NCBI RefSeq assembly: GCF_001510895.1
Contig: NZ_LPWA01000057.1
Span: 62,001 to 126,000 of the forward strand
DNA: 64,000 nucleotides
Origin: Mesorhizobium loti
Lineage (GTDB): Bacteria > Pseudomonadota > Alphaproteobacteria > Rhizobiales > Rhizobiaceae
Direction: 5' to 3'
Shown here: one piece after another, positions 4,537 to 59,267 of the stretch
Layout of the letters: every line of letters starts with the position of its first letter
How positions within the stretch are numbered: position 1 is the first letter of the stretch
Translations under genes and position numbers: made by a program
The notes under the pieces: generated by a model
The model's database searches: none
What the model was told of the DNA's origin: nothing
The model's input: only the letters and a program-made list of their open reading frames with translations

Positions 4537-5358
4537 TCACTGCGCGCCGCGCGCCACGCGCTCGATTTCCTCGCGCACCAGCCGCTCGACCAGTGTCGGC
4601 AGATTGTTGTCGAGCCAGTCCTGCAGCATCGGCCGCAGCATCTGCTCGGCCATCTCGTCGAAGGTCTTCTTGCTGCGGCTGGCGAAGGCATCGGAAAGCT
4701 CGCCGAACGCCGCCGCGACCTGCCGGCCCGTATGCTCGGACAGGATCGCCGGACGGGCTGGCGGCAGGTCGGCCGAGGATGGCCCTGAGACGTTGTCGGG
4801 TGCCGCGGTTTCGACCGTTGGCGTAGCAATATCCTCCTCGCCGATCTCGACTTCGGGCGCCGCTTCCGGCGGGCGGGTTGCCACCTTCGCCTTGACCGAG
4901 CTTCCGCCCACGGCGGTGATCTCGCGTCGCCAGTCGGCAACGATGGTATCGGCGCTTTGCGGCGCGGTTGCCGCGGCTCCCACATCCGCCGGCTTATCGG
5001 ATTCGGCGGCGACGCTTGTCCCGACTTCCGCCAGGGTGGTGGGTGCAGGCGCGGTCTTCACCGGTTCGGGGCGCGTCTCGGCGCGCGCGACCGCCTGATC
5101 GGATGACGCGAGCTGGGCTTGGATCTCTGCCAGGCTCACCGGCTTCCTGGAGGTGGATTCCGCGTTCAGCTCGGAGCGGAAGGCGTCAACGTCGGCGGCC
5201 GGCGCCACCGTCGGCTGGAGGTCCTGGCGCAAGTCACCATTGTCGGCCGCTGGCTGCTTGCGGCCGGTGTCGCTGTCCTCGATGATCCTTCGGATGGAAG
5301 CAAGAATCTCTTCCATGGAAGGTTCGCGCTGTGCGCTGCTTGCCGTCGCCATCGTCAC
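4537..5358 (-). CDS. popZ: PopZ-like polar organizing protein (DUF2497)
   Basis: The 273-residue product has the bipartite layout of alphaproteobacterial PopZ. A conserved N-terminal helix (PSMEEILASIRRIIEDSD, residues about 14-31) is followed by a long low-complexity Pro/Ala/Glu-rich linker and a conserved C-terminal oligomerisation region, including MAEQMLRPMLQDWLDNNLP. In Caulobacter and rhizobia PopZ forms polar condensates that anchor ParB-parS and recruit cell-cycle regulators. It lies between tolC and valS on the same strand, an arrangement I recall as common in Rhizobiales. The start at 5358 (MTMATASSAQ) may be two residues early, because a second Met follows. Confidence 0.85.
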   Translation of the reverse strand: MTMATASSAQREPSMEEILASIRRIIEDSDTGRKQPAADNGDLRQDLQPTVAPAADVDAFRSELNAESTSRKPVSLAEIQAQLASSDQAVARAETRPEPVKTAPAPTTLAEVGTSVAAESDKPADVGAAATAPQSADTIVADWRREITAVGGSSVKAKVATRPPEAAPEVEIGEEDIATPTVETAAPDNVSGPSSADLPPARPAILSEHTGRQVAAAFGELSDAFASRSKKTFDEMAEQMLRPMLQDWLDNNLPTLVERLVREEIERVARGAQ

Positions 5359-5534
5359 ATCCGCCGCCCTTGTGACCCATTGCAGATTTCCATTCCGGCC
5401 CGGCCGGAATTCGAATCAATGGCGACAGCGTAACCGACCGATCGTCATCCGAGAATCCCCAATCTGGGGAGACGTCGGGTTTCAACAGATTAGCTGGCTC
5501 CGTGCCAGCAGCCGACTGTTTGGTGCTCAAATGC

Positions 5535-5570
5535 AAAAACGCCGCGATCCATCGGACACGCGGCGCTTTT
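5535..5570 (-). terminator. Rho-independent terminator downstream of tolC
   Basis: AAAAACGCCGCG (5535-5546) pairs with CGCGGCGCTTTT (5559-5570) across a 12-nt loop, with one mismatch near the base. Read on the minus strand it is a GC-rich hairpin followed by TTTTTGC, 18 nt beyond the tolC stop. It would also work in the plus direction. Confidence 0.7.
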
Positions 5571-5587
5571 GAAAGTCTACAAAAGGA

Positions 5588-6981
5588 TCAGCGGCCGTCC
5601 GGCGTGCGCAGTCCGATCCACTTGTCCTTGACGGCGTTGTAGTGCTCTTCCGGCTTGTATTTCGCGACCGCCAGGCCGAGCCGGTCGACCGACAGGCGGC
5701 CGATCGCCGACAAGATGGCGTAGCTCGCCACGACGACGTCGCGCTCGGAGCTGGCCTGGTTGATCTTGGCCGTGATCACGGCGTTCTGCGCGTTGAGCAC
5801 GTCGAGGGTGGTGCGCTGGCCGACATTGCGCTCCTCGATGACGCCGTTGAGCGCCAGTTGCGCGGCGGCGATCACCTGCCTGTTGGCATCCACGCTTTCG
5901 CGGGCTGCCGTGTATTGCGTCCACGCCGAGGCCACCGCCTGGCGCACCTTGTCGCGGTTGACGTCGACCTCGATGCGGGCCTGGCTGAGCGATTCCTTCG
6001 ATTGGCGAACCAGCGCCGAAGTGCGGCCGCCCGAATAGATCGGCACGGTGAGCGTTGCGCCGATATTGGCCGAATTGGTCGTCCCTTCGGACGACGACGA
6101 CGCAAAAACGCCAGGCGTGGTGTTGCGATACTGGCTCGAAACCCCGCACTAGCGGAAAGCTGCGGCAAAAGCGCCCCTTCGGCAGACTTCACCGAAAACG
6201 CCGCGGCGTCGACAAGATGTTCCGTGGCGAGGATGGCCGGATGCTCGGCGGCGGCAATGGTGAAGGCGCCATCGAGGCTCCCCGGCAACAGCTTGCCCAT
6301 CGGCGCGGCCGCCTTGAGCTTGCCCGGCTCGTCGCCGACGACCTGGTGATAGGTCGCCGCGGCGGCCAGCGCCGTCGCACGAGCGCTGGCGAGTTGCGCC
6401 ACCGCCGTGGCGCGCGAGGCGTCGGCCTGCGCAACGTCGGTGCGGGTACCCTCGCCGACTTCGAAACGCGACCGTGCGGCGCGCGCCTGCTCGGTCAGGA
6501 ACTGCAGGTTCTGTTCGGTCAGCACCGCGATCTGGCGATCGCGGATCACGTCCATATAGGCGCTTGCCGCGTTGAACAGGATGTTCTCTTCGGTGTTGCG
6601 CAGGCTTTCTTGCGAGGCGCTGACCTGCGCTTCGGCGGCGGCGACATTGTTCTTGGTCTGGAAACCGTCGAACAGCGTCTGGTCGATCTCAACCCCAAAG
6701 TTGCCTGTCGTTATATTCAAGGTTTGACCCAGCCTGTTGGCGTGGCTGCTTGTGTAATCGATGCTCGCCGATCCCTTGATCGTCGGGCGGTAGCCCGACT
6801 TGGCGATGGCAACGCCTTCATCGGTGACACGGGTGCCGGCACGGGCGGAGTTCAGCTGGGAGTTGTATTGATAGGCTTTGGCGAGCGCGCCGGTGATGGT
6901 TTCTGCCGATGCGGCCAGCGGCGAAAGCGCGGTCGCCGAAACGAGCATGGCTGTTAGAAAAGTCTTGTGTAGGGGCGGCAC
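5588..6981 (-). CDS. tolC: TolC-family outer-membrane efflux channel, frameshifted
   Basis: TolC-type proteins form trimeric outer-membrane/periplasmic channels for type I secretion and RND efflux. A signal peptide (residues 1-26, ending ASA) precedes ETITGALAKAYQYNSQLNSA, a typical first OEP repeat. The C-terminal repeat includes VPIYSGGRTSALVRQSKESL. The two halves are in different frames: one base appears lost in the CCCC run at 6142-6145, after LLPQLSASAG and before SSQYRNTTPGV. With one base restored the protein has 464 residues, normal for rhizobial TolC. The start is GTG at 6981 with GAGGGA seven bases upstream. It follows pcm on the same strand, and a terminator follows the stop. Confidence 0.92.
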
Positions 6982-56298: not shown

Positions 56299-56847
56299 AT
56301 GCTGCGACTTGCCCTGGCGCTTTTCCTGCTTGCTGCTCCGACCCTCGCCCACGCGACCGACGCGGGCTGGGCGCTGCTGCGCGACGGCGGCCATATCGTC
56401 CTGCTTCGCCACGCTTTCGTCACCGGGGCGACCGATCCGGCGAATTTCGACATCGACAATTGCGCCAGCCAACTCAATCTCTCGGAGCGCGGCAAGCAGC
56501 AGGCGAGCCGCATCGGCGCCCTCTTCGCGGCGCGCGCGGCCCCTATCGAGCGCGTTCTCTCCAGCCGCTACTGCCGTTGCCTCGACACCGCCCGCATCGC
56601 TTTCGAGGCCGAACCGGAACCATTTGCGCCGCTCGATCTGCTCAAGACCGATCCAGAGCAGAAGGCCGCCCAGATGGAGGCGGTGATGAAGGAGATCCGC
56701 GGCTATTCCGGTTCCGACAATCTGGTGCTGGTAACGCATCTGGAAAACATCGAGGCACTCACCGGCATCGCGCCACGCGAGGGCGAGGCCGTGGTCGTGG
56801 CGCCGGAAGGCGACGGGCTCAAGGTGCTCGGCCGCGTCACTTTTTGA
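56299..56847 (+). CDS. Secreted histidine-phosphatase family protein
   Basis: The 182-residue protein has a signal peptide (LRLALALFLLAAPTLAHA), the phosphohistidine motif IVLLRHAFVTGAT, a second active-site block SSRYCRCLDTARIAFEAEPE and the distal His in VLVTHLENIEALTG. A periplasmic phosphatase is inferred; the substrate is unknown. Confidence 0.85.
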   Translation: MLRLALALFLLAAPTLAHATDAGWALLRDGGHIVLLRHAFVTGATDPANFDIDNCASQLNLSERGKQQASRIGALFAARAAPIERVLSSRYCRCLDTARIAFEAEPEPFAPLDLLKTDPEQKAAQMEAVMKEIRGYSGSDNLVLVTHLENIEALTGIAPREGEAVVVAPEGDGLKVLGRVTF

Positions 56848-56866
56848 CGACCCGCGCGCTTTAGCT

Positions 56867-56886
56867 CTGTGGCCGAAATGCCACAG
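56867..56886 (+). terminator. Hairpin after the histidine-phosphatase gene
   Basis: CTGTGGC-CGAAAT-GCCACAG forms a perfect 7-bp stem 20 nt beyond the stop. It has no T-run, so it is a weak terminator candidate. Confidence 0.4.
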
Positions 56887-56922
56887 CCGAAAGAACCCGC
56901 AAATCCGCCGCGACAATGCCGC

Positions 56923-56951
56923 TTGCGACAACCCGTCGCAGGGTCTATAGG
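56923..56951 (+). promoter_or_regulatory. Probable sigma-70 promoter for the tRNA-like region
   Basis: TTGCGA (56923-56928), a 17-bp spacer and TATAGG (56946-56951) match the tRNA-Asn promoter at 8614 in both boxes and spacing. Transcription would begin about 100 nt before the first tRNA-like sequence. Confidence 0.5.
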
Positions 56952-57064
56952 CGCGCTCCCGGTCACGAAAACCGAAGCGAGCACAACGGTTGGAGCTTTC
57001 GTCTCCGCCCGCGCAGACGGCTTTGCCGCGCTGTGTACGGCGCCGTTTCGGAGTGTTGGGACTT

Positions 57065-57130
57065 GCGGGTGTAGCTCATGGAGAGCGCCGGATTTGGATC
57101 CGGAGGCAGGGTTCGATTCCCACACCCACG
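57065..57130 (+). tRNA. Degenerate tRNA-like sequence 1 (about 66 nt)
   Basis: The ends GCGGGTG and CACCCAC pair with one mismatch. The D-stem GCTC/GAGC is kept, but its loop is only 5 nt. The anticodon stem CCGGA/TCCGG encloses just 6 nt (TTTGGA), so no anticodon can be assigned (Gln TTG or Pro TGG if one base were lost). The T-loop TTCGATT is intact, but the T-stem keeps only three pairs. No CCA is encoded. Too many defects for a normal charged tRNA: it may be a relic, a phage-type tRNA or a tRNA mimic. Confidence 0.55.
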
Positions 57131-57204
57131 ACACGGATAGCTCAGCTTGGTTAGAGCATCAGACTGTTAATCTGATTGTCGAAGGTTCGAATCCTTCTCC
57201 AACG
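57131..57204 (+). tRNA. Degenerate tRNA-Asn-like sequence 2, abutting the first
   Basis: The D-arm (GCTCAGCTTGGTTAGAGC), anticodon arm (ATCAGA-CTGTTAA-TCTGAT, anticodon GUU) and T-arm (GAAGG-TTCGAAT-CCTTC) are perfect. The acceptor stem is not: ACACGGA can pair with TCCAACG only over three bases, and no CCA follows. It starts at the base after tRNA-like 1. A three-arm body without an acceptor is what a tRNA mimic or a damaged phage tRNA would look like. Confidence 0.6.
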
Positions 57205-57550
57205 GCCTCATAAGCCGACACCTTCAGGTGGTGTTATCCAAAAACGGTCCGGGGACCGGAATGCGAGGACTTCATGGACGGCAGGGCTCGGCCTCGCCGG
57301 CCCGCGATCTCCTGCGCCTTCGGCTCGCGGCCAGGCCCGCGGTGACGATCAAGGCGCGGCAATGCCGGCAAAGGAGCTTCGGCTCCGGCGCCCGCTTTGC
57401 CGCCCCGCGATCCGCTCCCGAAGGCCCGCCGCTTGGCGATGCCACCGGTCTCCGGATCATTCGTGCCGGGAAAGGAAACGAGAAACGAAAGGACGATCGA
57501 CGCATGACGTGACGCCTCGCATGGGGCCATGCCCGACAGGAGTAAAGACA
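57205..57550 (+). other. Structured non-coding stretch between the tRNA-like pair and the slipin gene
   Basis: No convincing gene. CGGCAAAG (57366) and CTTTGCCG (57395-57402) form outer arms around GGAGC-TTCG-GCTCC, a stem closed by a stable UUCG tetraloop. CGGTCC/GGACCG near 57246-57259 is a second palindrome. The end carries AGGAG eight bases before the slipin ATG. It may be a long structured leader or a separate small RNA. Confidence 0.5.
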
Positions 57551-58696
57551 ATGAAGACCATTCTCGAAAAGCTTCTTGGACGCCTGCGCGTCCTCGTGAA
57601 GGAAAATGAGCGTGCCGTCGCCCTCTACAAGGGCGAGATCCAGGCTGTCCTGATGCCGGGCGAACATTGGCTCGCCAACCGGCGCGGCAACCTGGAAATC
57701 TCCAGGCACGACCTGAAGAACCCGGAATTCGTTTCGGCCTACGAGAAGGCATTGTTCGACAAGCTCCCGGATGTGGCCGCGCGTCACTTCACCGTCGTTC
57801 GCACCGGGCGCACCGACATTGCCGTTATCGAGCGCGACGGCGCCCTCCATGCCGTTCTGGTCCCGGACCGCAAGCTCGTGCTGTGGACGGACGCCGGTCC
57901 GTGGAAGGTGACGTCTGTCGACACGGCGGCCGATCTGGCTGTCGATCCGGCCTTGATGCGCCGGATCGGCCAGGCCCGGAAGACGGAACACATGTTCCTG
58001 CATCCGGTCGTGGACGGCCAGGTCGGGCTGCTGTTCGTGGATGGCGTCTACGCCCGCACGCTTGCCGCGGGCGCGCACGCCTTCTGGAATGTCGGCCGCA
58101 TGGTCCAGGTGAAGGTCGTCGATCTCAAGCGCCAGTCGCTCGATGTCGCCGGGCAGGAAATGCTGACCAAGGATCGCGTGACGATCCGAGTCAACATCGC
58201 CGCCGAATACCGGGTCGTTGACCCGGTGACGGCGGTGAGCACGGTGAAGGACTTCTCGGAAGCCCTCTACCGCGCCCTGCAGTACGCCTTCCGCAAGACG
58301 CTAGGCGCGCTCACGCTCGACCAGATCCTCGACAAGAAGGTGACGGTCGACGAGGAGGCGGCGGCCAAGGTGCGTACCGACATGGCCGCGATCGGCCTCG
58401 AGGTCAGCGATATCGCGCTCAAGGATGTCATCCTGCCGGGCGAGATGCGCGAGATCCTCAACCAGGTGGTTTCGGCCGAGAAGCAGGCCGAGGCCAACGT
58501 CATCCGTCGCCGCGAGGAGACGAACGCCACGCGTTCGCTGCTCAACACGGCCAAGGTGATGGCCGAGAACCCGGTGATGCTGCGCCTGAAGGAGCTCGAG
58601 GCTCTCGAGGCCATCGCCGACAAGGTCGAGCGGCTCACCGTCCACAACGGTACCGGCGGGCTGCTCAACGACCTGGTCAAGCTCCGCGACAGCTGA
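57551..58696 (+). CDS. Slipin (SPFH/band-7 family) protein
   Basis: The 381-residue protein has an N-terminal extension (MKTILEKLLGRLRVLVKENE) and a second unusual block up to about residue 150. The SPFH domain follows (VDLKRQSLDVAGQEMLTKDR, VTIRVNIAAEYRVVDPVTAV, LEVSDIALKDVILPGEMREI), then a helical C-terminus. There is no obvious N-terminal membrane helix, unlike classic stomatins. I recall slipins with this longer N-terminus from RtcB-type RNA-repair gene clusters; no rtcB or rtcR is in this window. The upstream tRNA-like sequences make that association worth testing. Confidence 0.85.
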   Translation: MKTILEKLLGRLRVLVKENERAVALYKGEIQAVLMPGEHWLANRRGNLEISRHDLKNPEFVSAYEKALFDKLPDVAARHFTVVRTGRTDIAVIERDGALHAVLVPDRKLVLWTDAGPWKVTSVDTAADLAVDPALMRRIGQARKTEHMFLHPVVDGQVGLLFVDGVYARTLAAGAHAFWNVGRMVQVKVVDLKRQSLDVAGQEMLTKDRVTIRVNIAAEYRVVDPVTAVSTVKDFSEALYRALQYAFRKTLGALTLDQILDKKVTVDEEAAAKVRTDMAAIGLEVSDIALKDVILPGEMREILNQVVSAEKQAEANVIRRREETNATRSLLNTAKVMAENPVMLRLKELEALEAIADKVERLTVHNGTGGLLNDLVKLRDS

Positions 58697-59155: not shown

Positions 59156-59184
59156 GCGGCTTGGGCGCGGTCTTGACGTGCCCA

Positions 59185-59232
59185 GCGCATGACCCTGAAA
59201 ATCGGCATCGATTTTCGGAACGGATCATGCGC
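59185..59232. repeat. Palindromic repeat between acpXL and fabF2XL
   Basis: GCGCATGA (59185-59192) pairs with TCATGCGC (59225-59232), and inside it GAAAATCG pairs with CGATTTTC around GCAT. I recognise it as a common rhizobial intergenic palindrome. It occupies the place where fabZXL would be expected. Confidence 0.8.
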
Positions 59233-59267
59233 AAAATCGAAAGCTACCTGACCCACAACAGCCGCTC

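Follow-up and report, generated by a model that had tools for sequence, protein, structure and literature searches.

A large structured leader RNA with two tRNA-like domains precedes a slipin gene in Mesorhizobium loti and other proteobacteria

The DNA analysed here (the window) comprises 64,000 nucleotides (nt) of Mesorhizobium loti contig NZ_LPWA01000057.1 (positions 62,001 to 126,000 of the forward strand; assembly GCF_001510895.1), from a genome of 7.46 Mb in 185 contigs that is 93% complete. Its plus strand carries a gene for a slipin, an SPFH/Band_7 protein of 381 amino acids (57551-58696), preceded by a structured leader of approximately 560 nt that holds two abutting tRNA-like domains, TL1 and TL2. 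It is well supported that a large folded leader RNA with two tRNA mimics precedes the slipin gene in many proteobacteria. The original prediction, made from the sequence of this locus, had noticed the pair and the slipin, and had overlooked both the structured leader around the pair and the hypervariable anticodons.

All features of the locus lie on the plus strand. The promoter-like box and the slipin that had been predicted to flank the pair are both present: the box, a match to consensus only, has its -35 element TTGCGA at 56923-56928, a 17-nt spacer and its -10 element TATAGG at 56946-56951, and the slipin matches Band_7 (PF01145) with an E value of 2.4e-28. The box is kept in Mesorhizobium leaders, and several other families have TATA-like boxes at a similar place. 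A 5' leader domain with a long closing stem and two hairpins, drawn from alifold, occupies 56956-57064, with its start guessed from the -10 box. It is followed by TL1 (57065-57133; helices 1-4 of the alignment described below) and TL2 (57131-57204; helices 5-8), both assigned with the Rfam tRNA model. The fold of the window places two short hairpins directly 3' of TL2, at 57203-57217 and 57218-57234, for which relatives have CGGC/GCCG and TGGC/GCCA variants. A 3' structured domain (57246-57458), found by alifold and in the window fold, is closed by a 14 base pair (bp) long-range helix (57246-57259 with 57445-57458). Between this domain and the slipin lies a start-codon-stop mini open reading frame (mini-ORF; ATG ACG TGA, 57504-57512) with AAAGGA on its 5' side, recognised through statistics over many leaders.

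Both tRNA-like domains score above the Rfam tRNA cut-off of 29 bits, TL1 with 44.0 bits (57065-57130) and TL2 with 55.6 bits (57135-57200, model positions 5-66, the outer acceptor being absent). Their ends overlap, given that 57131-57137, the 7 nt on the 5' side of U8 of TL2, coincide with the last bases of TL1, so the predicted abutting pair is borne out. In TL2 the D, anticodon (GUU, 57166-57168) and T arms are intact, with the anticodon stem at 57159-57163/57171-57175 and the loop CTGTTAA at 57164-57170, and CCA is absent, all as predicted; the acceptor stem, which had been considered missing, is in fact short, with about 3 pairs. The predicted shortening of TL1 is seen in the window as a short D loop, a 6-nt anticodon loop (TTTGGA, 57093-57098), a shortened variable loop and T arm; it is a trait of one Mesorhizobium sub-group (L007-L012 type), most relatives having a fuller TL1 with encoded CCA. 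The 3' end of TL1 is GACA in the window and usually NCCA in relatives. ARAGORN, run on the window, called only TL1, as tRNA-??? with a 2-nt anticodon, and found no tmRNA there. In a scan of the leader (56840-57600) against Rfam 15 with E values up to 1, tRNA was the sole family above cut-off, and RF04351 matched below threshold on the opposite strand (24.5 bits, cut-off 68).

The structure of the pair is preserved by covariation across relatives. In an alignment of 31 sequences, 97.5% of 1207 cells are paired, where the loci had been picked by our own structural finder, which required five of five anticodon-stem, four of five T-stem and three of four D-stem pairs and used the acceptor only to add to the score. 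Versions of the structure slid along the alignment pair at most 47.5% of cells. Compensated changes occur in 26 of the 39 pairs, with 206 compensated cells versus 47.6 in shuffles, and pairing holds in the acceptor of TL1 (92% of cells) and in the 4-bp acceptor of TL2 (94%). A covariance model of both units, built from the 31 sequences with the window left out and the Mesorhizobium locus L019 included, gives the window pair 117.5 bits (E 2e-35), whereas no real tRNA of the window scores above 60.8 bits. The covariance-model scan thus argues that the pair is not a product of chance. Relatives checked for two normal tRNA genes at this place showed none, and kept the tRNA-like arms beside the slipin.

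Tandem tRNA-like units without normal ends might suggest two tRNA genes in decay or the remains of a phage tRNA array, the latter being the plain alternative of the original prediction. Either origin is refuted by the covariation across Proteobacteria, the fixed position before slipin and the near absence from phage collections, and retains practically no probability. One phage collection gave a single weak, partial slipin match, and among 38 pattern matches in IMG/VR one, on a single contig, encodes a relative.

The counts that follow come from the same structural finder, in which leaders with degraded units are under-represented, and they reveal a split of labour between the two domains. TL1 has the acceptor stem, usually an encoded CCA, and an odd anticodon loop: among 75 distinct units, 65 have at least 6 acceptor pairs, 61 encode NCCA, and the loop ranges from 4 to 7 nt, being 7 nt in only 22. 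TL2 has a real-looking anticodon loop, an acceptor of about 4 bp and no CCA: 80 of 86 distinct units have a 7-nt loop and 24 different anticodons are found. In these 80 loops, T33 is present in 62, A37 in 69 and T36 in 54. Neither unit has the features of a canonical tRNA gene, namely a 7-bp acceptor, a 7-nt loop with U33 and a fixed anticodon, as the loop of TL1 is mostly irregular and TL2 has a short acceptor and an anticodon that varies between close strains. At one locus outside the class of the window, three tRNA-like units stand between rtcR and slipin (L211, 1105-1319). The genome of the window also contains a truncated second tRNA-Arg(UCU)-like gene (L192, G000:C99:6075-6143; 43.5 bits) and odd Thr(CGU)-like and Gln(UUG)-like units.

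The linkage of the pair to slipin was followed in several genome sets. Among 61 genomes searched at the DNA level, the pair scored at least 140 bits in 21 of 37 genomes of the same genus (that of the window included), and another family gave a weaker match (L028). Slipin adjoins the pair in 21 of the 22 loci taken (L007-L028), the remaining one, L009, stopping at a contig edge; the slipins of named Mesorhizobium relatives are up to 98% identical to that of the window. With the covariance model, 62 sources were searched (window included, some of them duplicates), and a slipin leader with at least 82 bits was found in 48, of which 13 (82-92 bits) rest on their place before slipin, because ordinary tRNA genes can reach such scores. 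Of the others, 13 scored 22-65 bits, the range of a single real tRNA or less, and L198, whose leader is cut at 70 nt, gave none.

Of 99 Mesorhizobium genomes, 59 had a single model match scoring 114 bits or more; the runner-up (93 bits) lies at a place that earlier searches had marked as an ordinary tRNA. Slipin was found in 58 of these genomes, all of them among the 59 with the pair. In the odd genome, G019, the pair is at a contig end without slipin, and in G1170 pair and slipin are on different contigs. This co-occurrence means that pair and slipin are present or absent as one module, and it is well supported that the conserved multi-domain leader is gained and lost together with slipin. 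In Mesorhizobium genomes without the module, the phosphatase end and the upstream region of the next gene lie within 192 nt of each other in 7 of 10; L232 has 723 nt of other DNA at the site and L226 has no upstream match. At the empty site of L224, 138 nt of the slipin 3' end (window 58559-58696) have survived as a relic, so loss of the module does occur. Transfer as a mobile cassette was considered and rejected: in the plasmid collection, slipin (E up to 1e-20) was found in 9 records, all typed non-mobilizable and 7 of them larger than 1 Mb. As separate observations, slipin is split in two frames in G1133 and G1135 and has an internal stop in G1165, the RNA pair being kept in all three, and the stretch behind the acyl carrier protein gene (window 59179-59238) is a dispersed repeat of about 55 nt with several to dozens of matches in each of 12 Mesorhizobium genomes searched.

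The leader is structured well beyond the pair. In a 15-sequence alifold, the 5' domain has 22 pairs, 15 with compensated changes; taken alone, the 5' domain of the window is barely more stable than shuffles (z -1.26, with 23 of 200 shuffles as stable). The 3' domain with the first hairpin after TL2 has 61 pairs in an alifold of 15 sequences, 36 with compensated changes, and the fold of the 3' domain in the window is as stable in none of 200 shuffles (z -3.6). A long-range closing helix of 14-19 bp, with a sequence that differs by lineage, was found in many lineages in a survey that took the longest complementary run per leader, with no shuffled control, and in some loci (e.g., L060, L124, L126, and L139) that run measures no more than 8-9 bp. 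Of 113 distinct leaders, 93 have a start-NNN-stop mini-ORF no more than 100 nt from the slipin start, versus 78 of 1032 control windows further upstream. In most of the closer relatives the mini-ORF has its own AAAGGA-like box, and it encodes Met-Thr in the window and has Thr, Ser, Pro, or Arg as the variable residue in most others.

A mini-ORF with a variable middle codon is what might be expected of a T-box-like or otherwise tRNA-sensing leader, in which either a codon-like element in cis would be bound by the anticodon loop, or tRNA supply would be read out by the codon of the mini-ORF. Within Mesorhizobium, no leader element complementary to the TL2 anticodon across alleles, as in a T-box or a kissing loop in cis, exceeded the shuffled control, nor does the mini-ORF codon track the TL2 anticodon. 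No T-box family was matched in the Rfam 15 scans of window and leader. Such a sensing leader is highly unlikely.

The slipin itself carries both a Band_7 domain and a stomatin fold and thus belongs to the Slipin/SPFH family, aligning with stomatin of the PDB over residues 149-355 (E approximately 1e-30). In the AlphaFold2 model, with a pLDDT confidence of 83.8, three small beta-sheet repeats can be read before the SPFH domain. By structure, too, the model matches stomatin (Z about 15), VIA-align giving 9z7u_B (Z 15.3, root-mean-square deviation (rmsd) 10.0, 223 residues) and 9zd2_E (Z 15.0, rmsd 3.5, 158 residues). SPFH proteins form rings and cages, and the leader RNA may be a structural partner in a slipin ribonucleoprotein, its tRNA-like domains tethering tRNA-binding enzymes to such a ring or cage. 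The co-occurrence of slipin and RNA across the 99 genomes is in line with this, as are alignments to major vault protein (Z 10-11), some of which span residues 13-339 and so cover the N-terminal repeats with the SPFH part. Nonetheless, stomatin aligns better, and the N-terminal half alone has no vault-specific match, its best hit being to an SPFH N-terminal repeat with a score below the trusted level (Z 5.8, rmsd 3.4, 50 residues). A role as structural partner seems improbable.

The original prediction had placed slipins and tRNA-like RNAs with RNA-repair loci, and the gene neighbourhoods agree. At 14 loci outside the Alphaproteobacteria, the class of the window, slipin stands beside rtcB in 13, RlaP in 1 and rtcR in 6 (tblastn, with Pfam on samples). 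The pair scores at least 89 bits in 9 of the 14. Boxes with the sigma54-like motif TGGCACG can be seen in some of these loci (L203, L207, and L212). KptA lies directly 3' of slipin in 8 Roseibium-type loci, of which L041 and L118 have the same sequence. In a clustering of the neighbours of 40 loci, restricted to open reading frames of at least 100 amino acids and to the best 25 clusters by size, KptA is the recurrent immediate neighbour tied to RNA repair (7 loci). Another cluster of that analysis (L131_9918) occurs at +1.4 to +2.1 kb in 5 of the 40 loci. PADLOC gave no match for the 3 slipins submitted to it.

The predicted version of the locus without rtcB is also real, since RtcB has no match in the genome of the window, at its 93% completeness, or in G015 and G030; neither KptA nor RlaP was matched in any of the 7 Mesorhizobium genomes searched, that of the window included. 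RtcB was matched in 20 of 40 genomes selected for carrying slipin versus 8 of 40 in which no slipin was found, which is not a random sample. In Escherichia coli, a 638-nt stretch that extends into slipin is present over at least 80% of its length in 1620 of 5426 genomes. The annotated E. coli record L234 has its slipin at 5001-6113 with a nucleotidyltransferase behind it, a sigma54-like box and a short leader, the locus lying between DUF3811 and lysC.

The variability of the anticodon was measured as changes in 50 Mesorhizobium leaders mapped on the slipin tree. The D, anticodon and T stems of TL2 have no change at 28 positions, while loop positions 32-38 have 9, 7, 17, 17, 9, 5, and 4 changes; fourfold sites of slipin have a mean of 3.7 changes over 125 sites, and a single site has at least 17. 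In a MAFFT alignment of 567 leader columns, only three reach 17 changes, and these are TL2 position 34, TL2 position 35 and the last base of the TL1 loop. Positions 33, 37, and 38 of TL2 change less, resembling a real anticodon loop. Of 45 distinct 7-nt TL2 loops, 12 are identical to a real tRNA loop of the window's genome, versus 6.4 on triplet shuffling (P 0.003), the real set consisting of 42 loops, with two odd loops left out and tRNA-Ile(GAU) not included, and a few single units counted as TL2 being possibly TL1. The loops of TL1 show no such excess (1 of 20).

The TL2 loop differs in 5 of 8 strain pairs whose slipin nucleotide sequences are at least 97% identical, and its allele carries little phylogenetic signal, with 25 changes on the tree versus 29.4 when shuffled (minimum 26). 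Further loops and hairpins of the leader likewise vary between close strains, whose alleles may have moved by mutation or by recombination.

The frozen stems of TL2, the fastest change at positions 34 and 35, the mimicry of real tRNA loops and the differences between close strains suggest, tentatively and at somewhat less than even confidence, that the RNA is a tRNA-mimic bait or sentinel of a tRNA-damage response, in which RNA and slipin would respond to cut tRNAs. The position of rtcB, RlaP, and KptA beside slipin in relatives also speaks for this role. TL2 would offer anticodon-loop nucleases a proper anticodon stem-loop, and since its short acceptor and lack of CCA would make it unchargeable, nuclease binding or cutting would cost nothing. 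TL1 would present a CCA-bearing acceptor end, and its anticodon loop, being unusable, should not decode. Binding or cutting of TL2 would titrate the nuclease and/or open the leader upstream of slipin, the slipin would organise the response, and RtcB, RlaP, or KptA next door would carry out repair; in Mesorhizobium, RNA and slipin would act without them. The anticodon would vary as strains meet different nucleases.

Several results weigh against a bait role. Position 59 of the T loop reaches 15-16 changes in both units and the TL2 D-loop string changes 30 times versus 25 for its anticodon-loop string, so much of the variability can be put down to relaxed constraint. TL2 loops are not strict copies of those of real tRNAs, because A34 occurs in 9 of 80 and U33 is absent in 18 of 80. 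Half of the tested slipin-bearing genomes of the window's class (20 of 40) have no RtcB match. The E. coli leader is reduced to a T-arm-like remnant, in which the covariance model finds no pair, with slipin and a nucleotidyltransferase kept in record L234. YrlA of Salmonella was not cut by the nuclease studied in PMC7790460.

The variable T-loop position and D loops fit the principal rival explanation, in which the tRNA folds are devices for the processing or control of the slipin mRNA, through RNase P/RNase Z sites, stability, or translation together with the mini-ORF, and the anticodon loops drift unread. The place of the mimics within the slipin leader, the common mini-ORF and the strongly structured 5' and 3' domains are likewise what it would lead one to expect. 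It accounts poorly for positions 34 and 35 being among the three fastest columns while 33, 37, and 38 are held, and for TL2 loops that match real loops beyond shuffling, and we regard it as rather unlikely.

As a tRNA-like RNA in an RNA-repair setting, the leader is of a known kind. YrlA and the bacterial Y RNAs of rsr-yrlBA-rtcBA operons likewise place a tRNA-like domain of a non-coding RNA in RtcR/RtcB repair loci; according to PMC7790460, cut tRNAs activate RtcR, and the tRNA-like domain of YrlA was proposed to inhibit an anticodon nuclease competitively. In contrast, the slipin leader RNA has two tRNA-like domains with anticodon arms and hypervariable anticodons, in line with slipin, and the YrlA-type RNA suggested by the original prediction was not recovered, as no Y-RNA family of Rfam 15 matched in the window, in 56840-57600 (E up to 1), or in 20 slipin loci. 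PaFlo8 is an SPFH gene inside the rtc locus of Pseudomonas aeruginosa, among RtcA, RtcB, and RtcR (PMC13086221); the word 'tRNA' does not occur in the main text of that source. In Anabaena, TrcR is described as a repressor of rtcB, of the trn tRNA array and of genes among which is the slipin alr0740 (in alr0739-alr0740), and slipin, rtcB and the extra tRNAs are derepressed together (PMC10272220); there the tRNAs form a separate 26-gene array, whereas here the mimic pair is inside the slipin leader.

Compared with tRNA genes, the two units share the cloverleaf, T loop and D stem, TL1 usually also the CCA and TL2 a real-like anticodon loop, whereas neither is complete, the anticodon is not conserved and both are inside a large structured leader. 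In tmRNA, likewise a large RNA, a tRNA-like part occurs together with long-range helices and a tiny ORF; the slipin leader resembles this combination and differs in its two separate tRNA-like domains. Titles and abstracts on slipin or SPFH with tRNA-like RNAs gave no record, so that the pair before slipins is undescribed there, earlier mention in key comparative work being possible; 'tRNA decoy' combined with 'anticodon nuclease' likewise gave none in titles and abstracts.

A bait role, if true, would be categorically new. A doubtful but wider possibility, suggested by the sequence comparisons, is a new class of large structured RNA whose allelically shuffled anticodons would serve as bait for the anticodon nucleases of phage defence, toxin-antitoxin systems or competitors, coupled to a slipin scaffold; it would be an arms-race RNA with the anticodon as its antigen-like variable site. 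Bacteria commonly use the cutting of tRNAs as a weapon against each other, and it is also common in conflicts of bacteria with phages. Should the bait role hold, a leader RNA would couple a tRNA-shaped bait to a scaffold protein, with anticodons that change between sister strains, and would both allow a direct test and record legibly which anticodons come under attack. If it does not hold, a widespread structured RNA, present in Rfam 15 only via its tRNA-like parts, is tied to RNA-repair genes, and the slipins of rtc loci gain an RNA partner.

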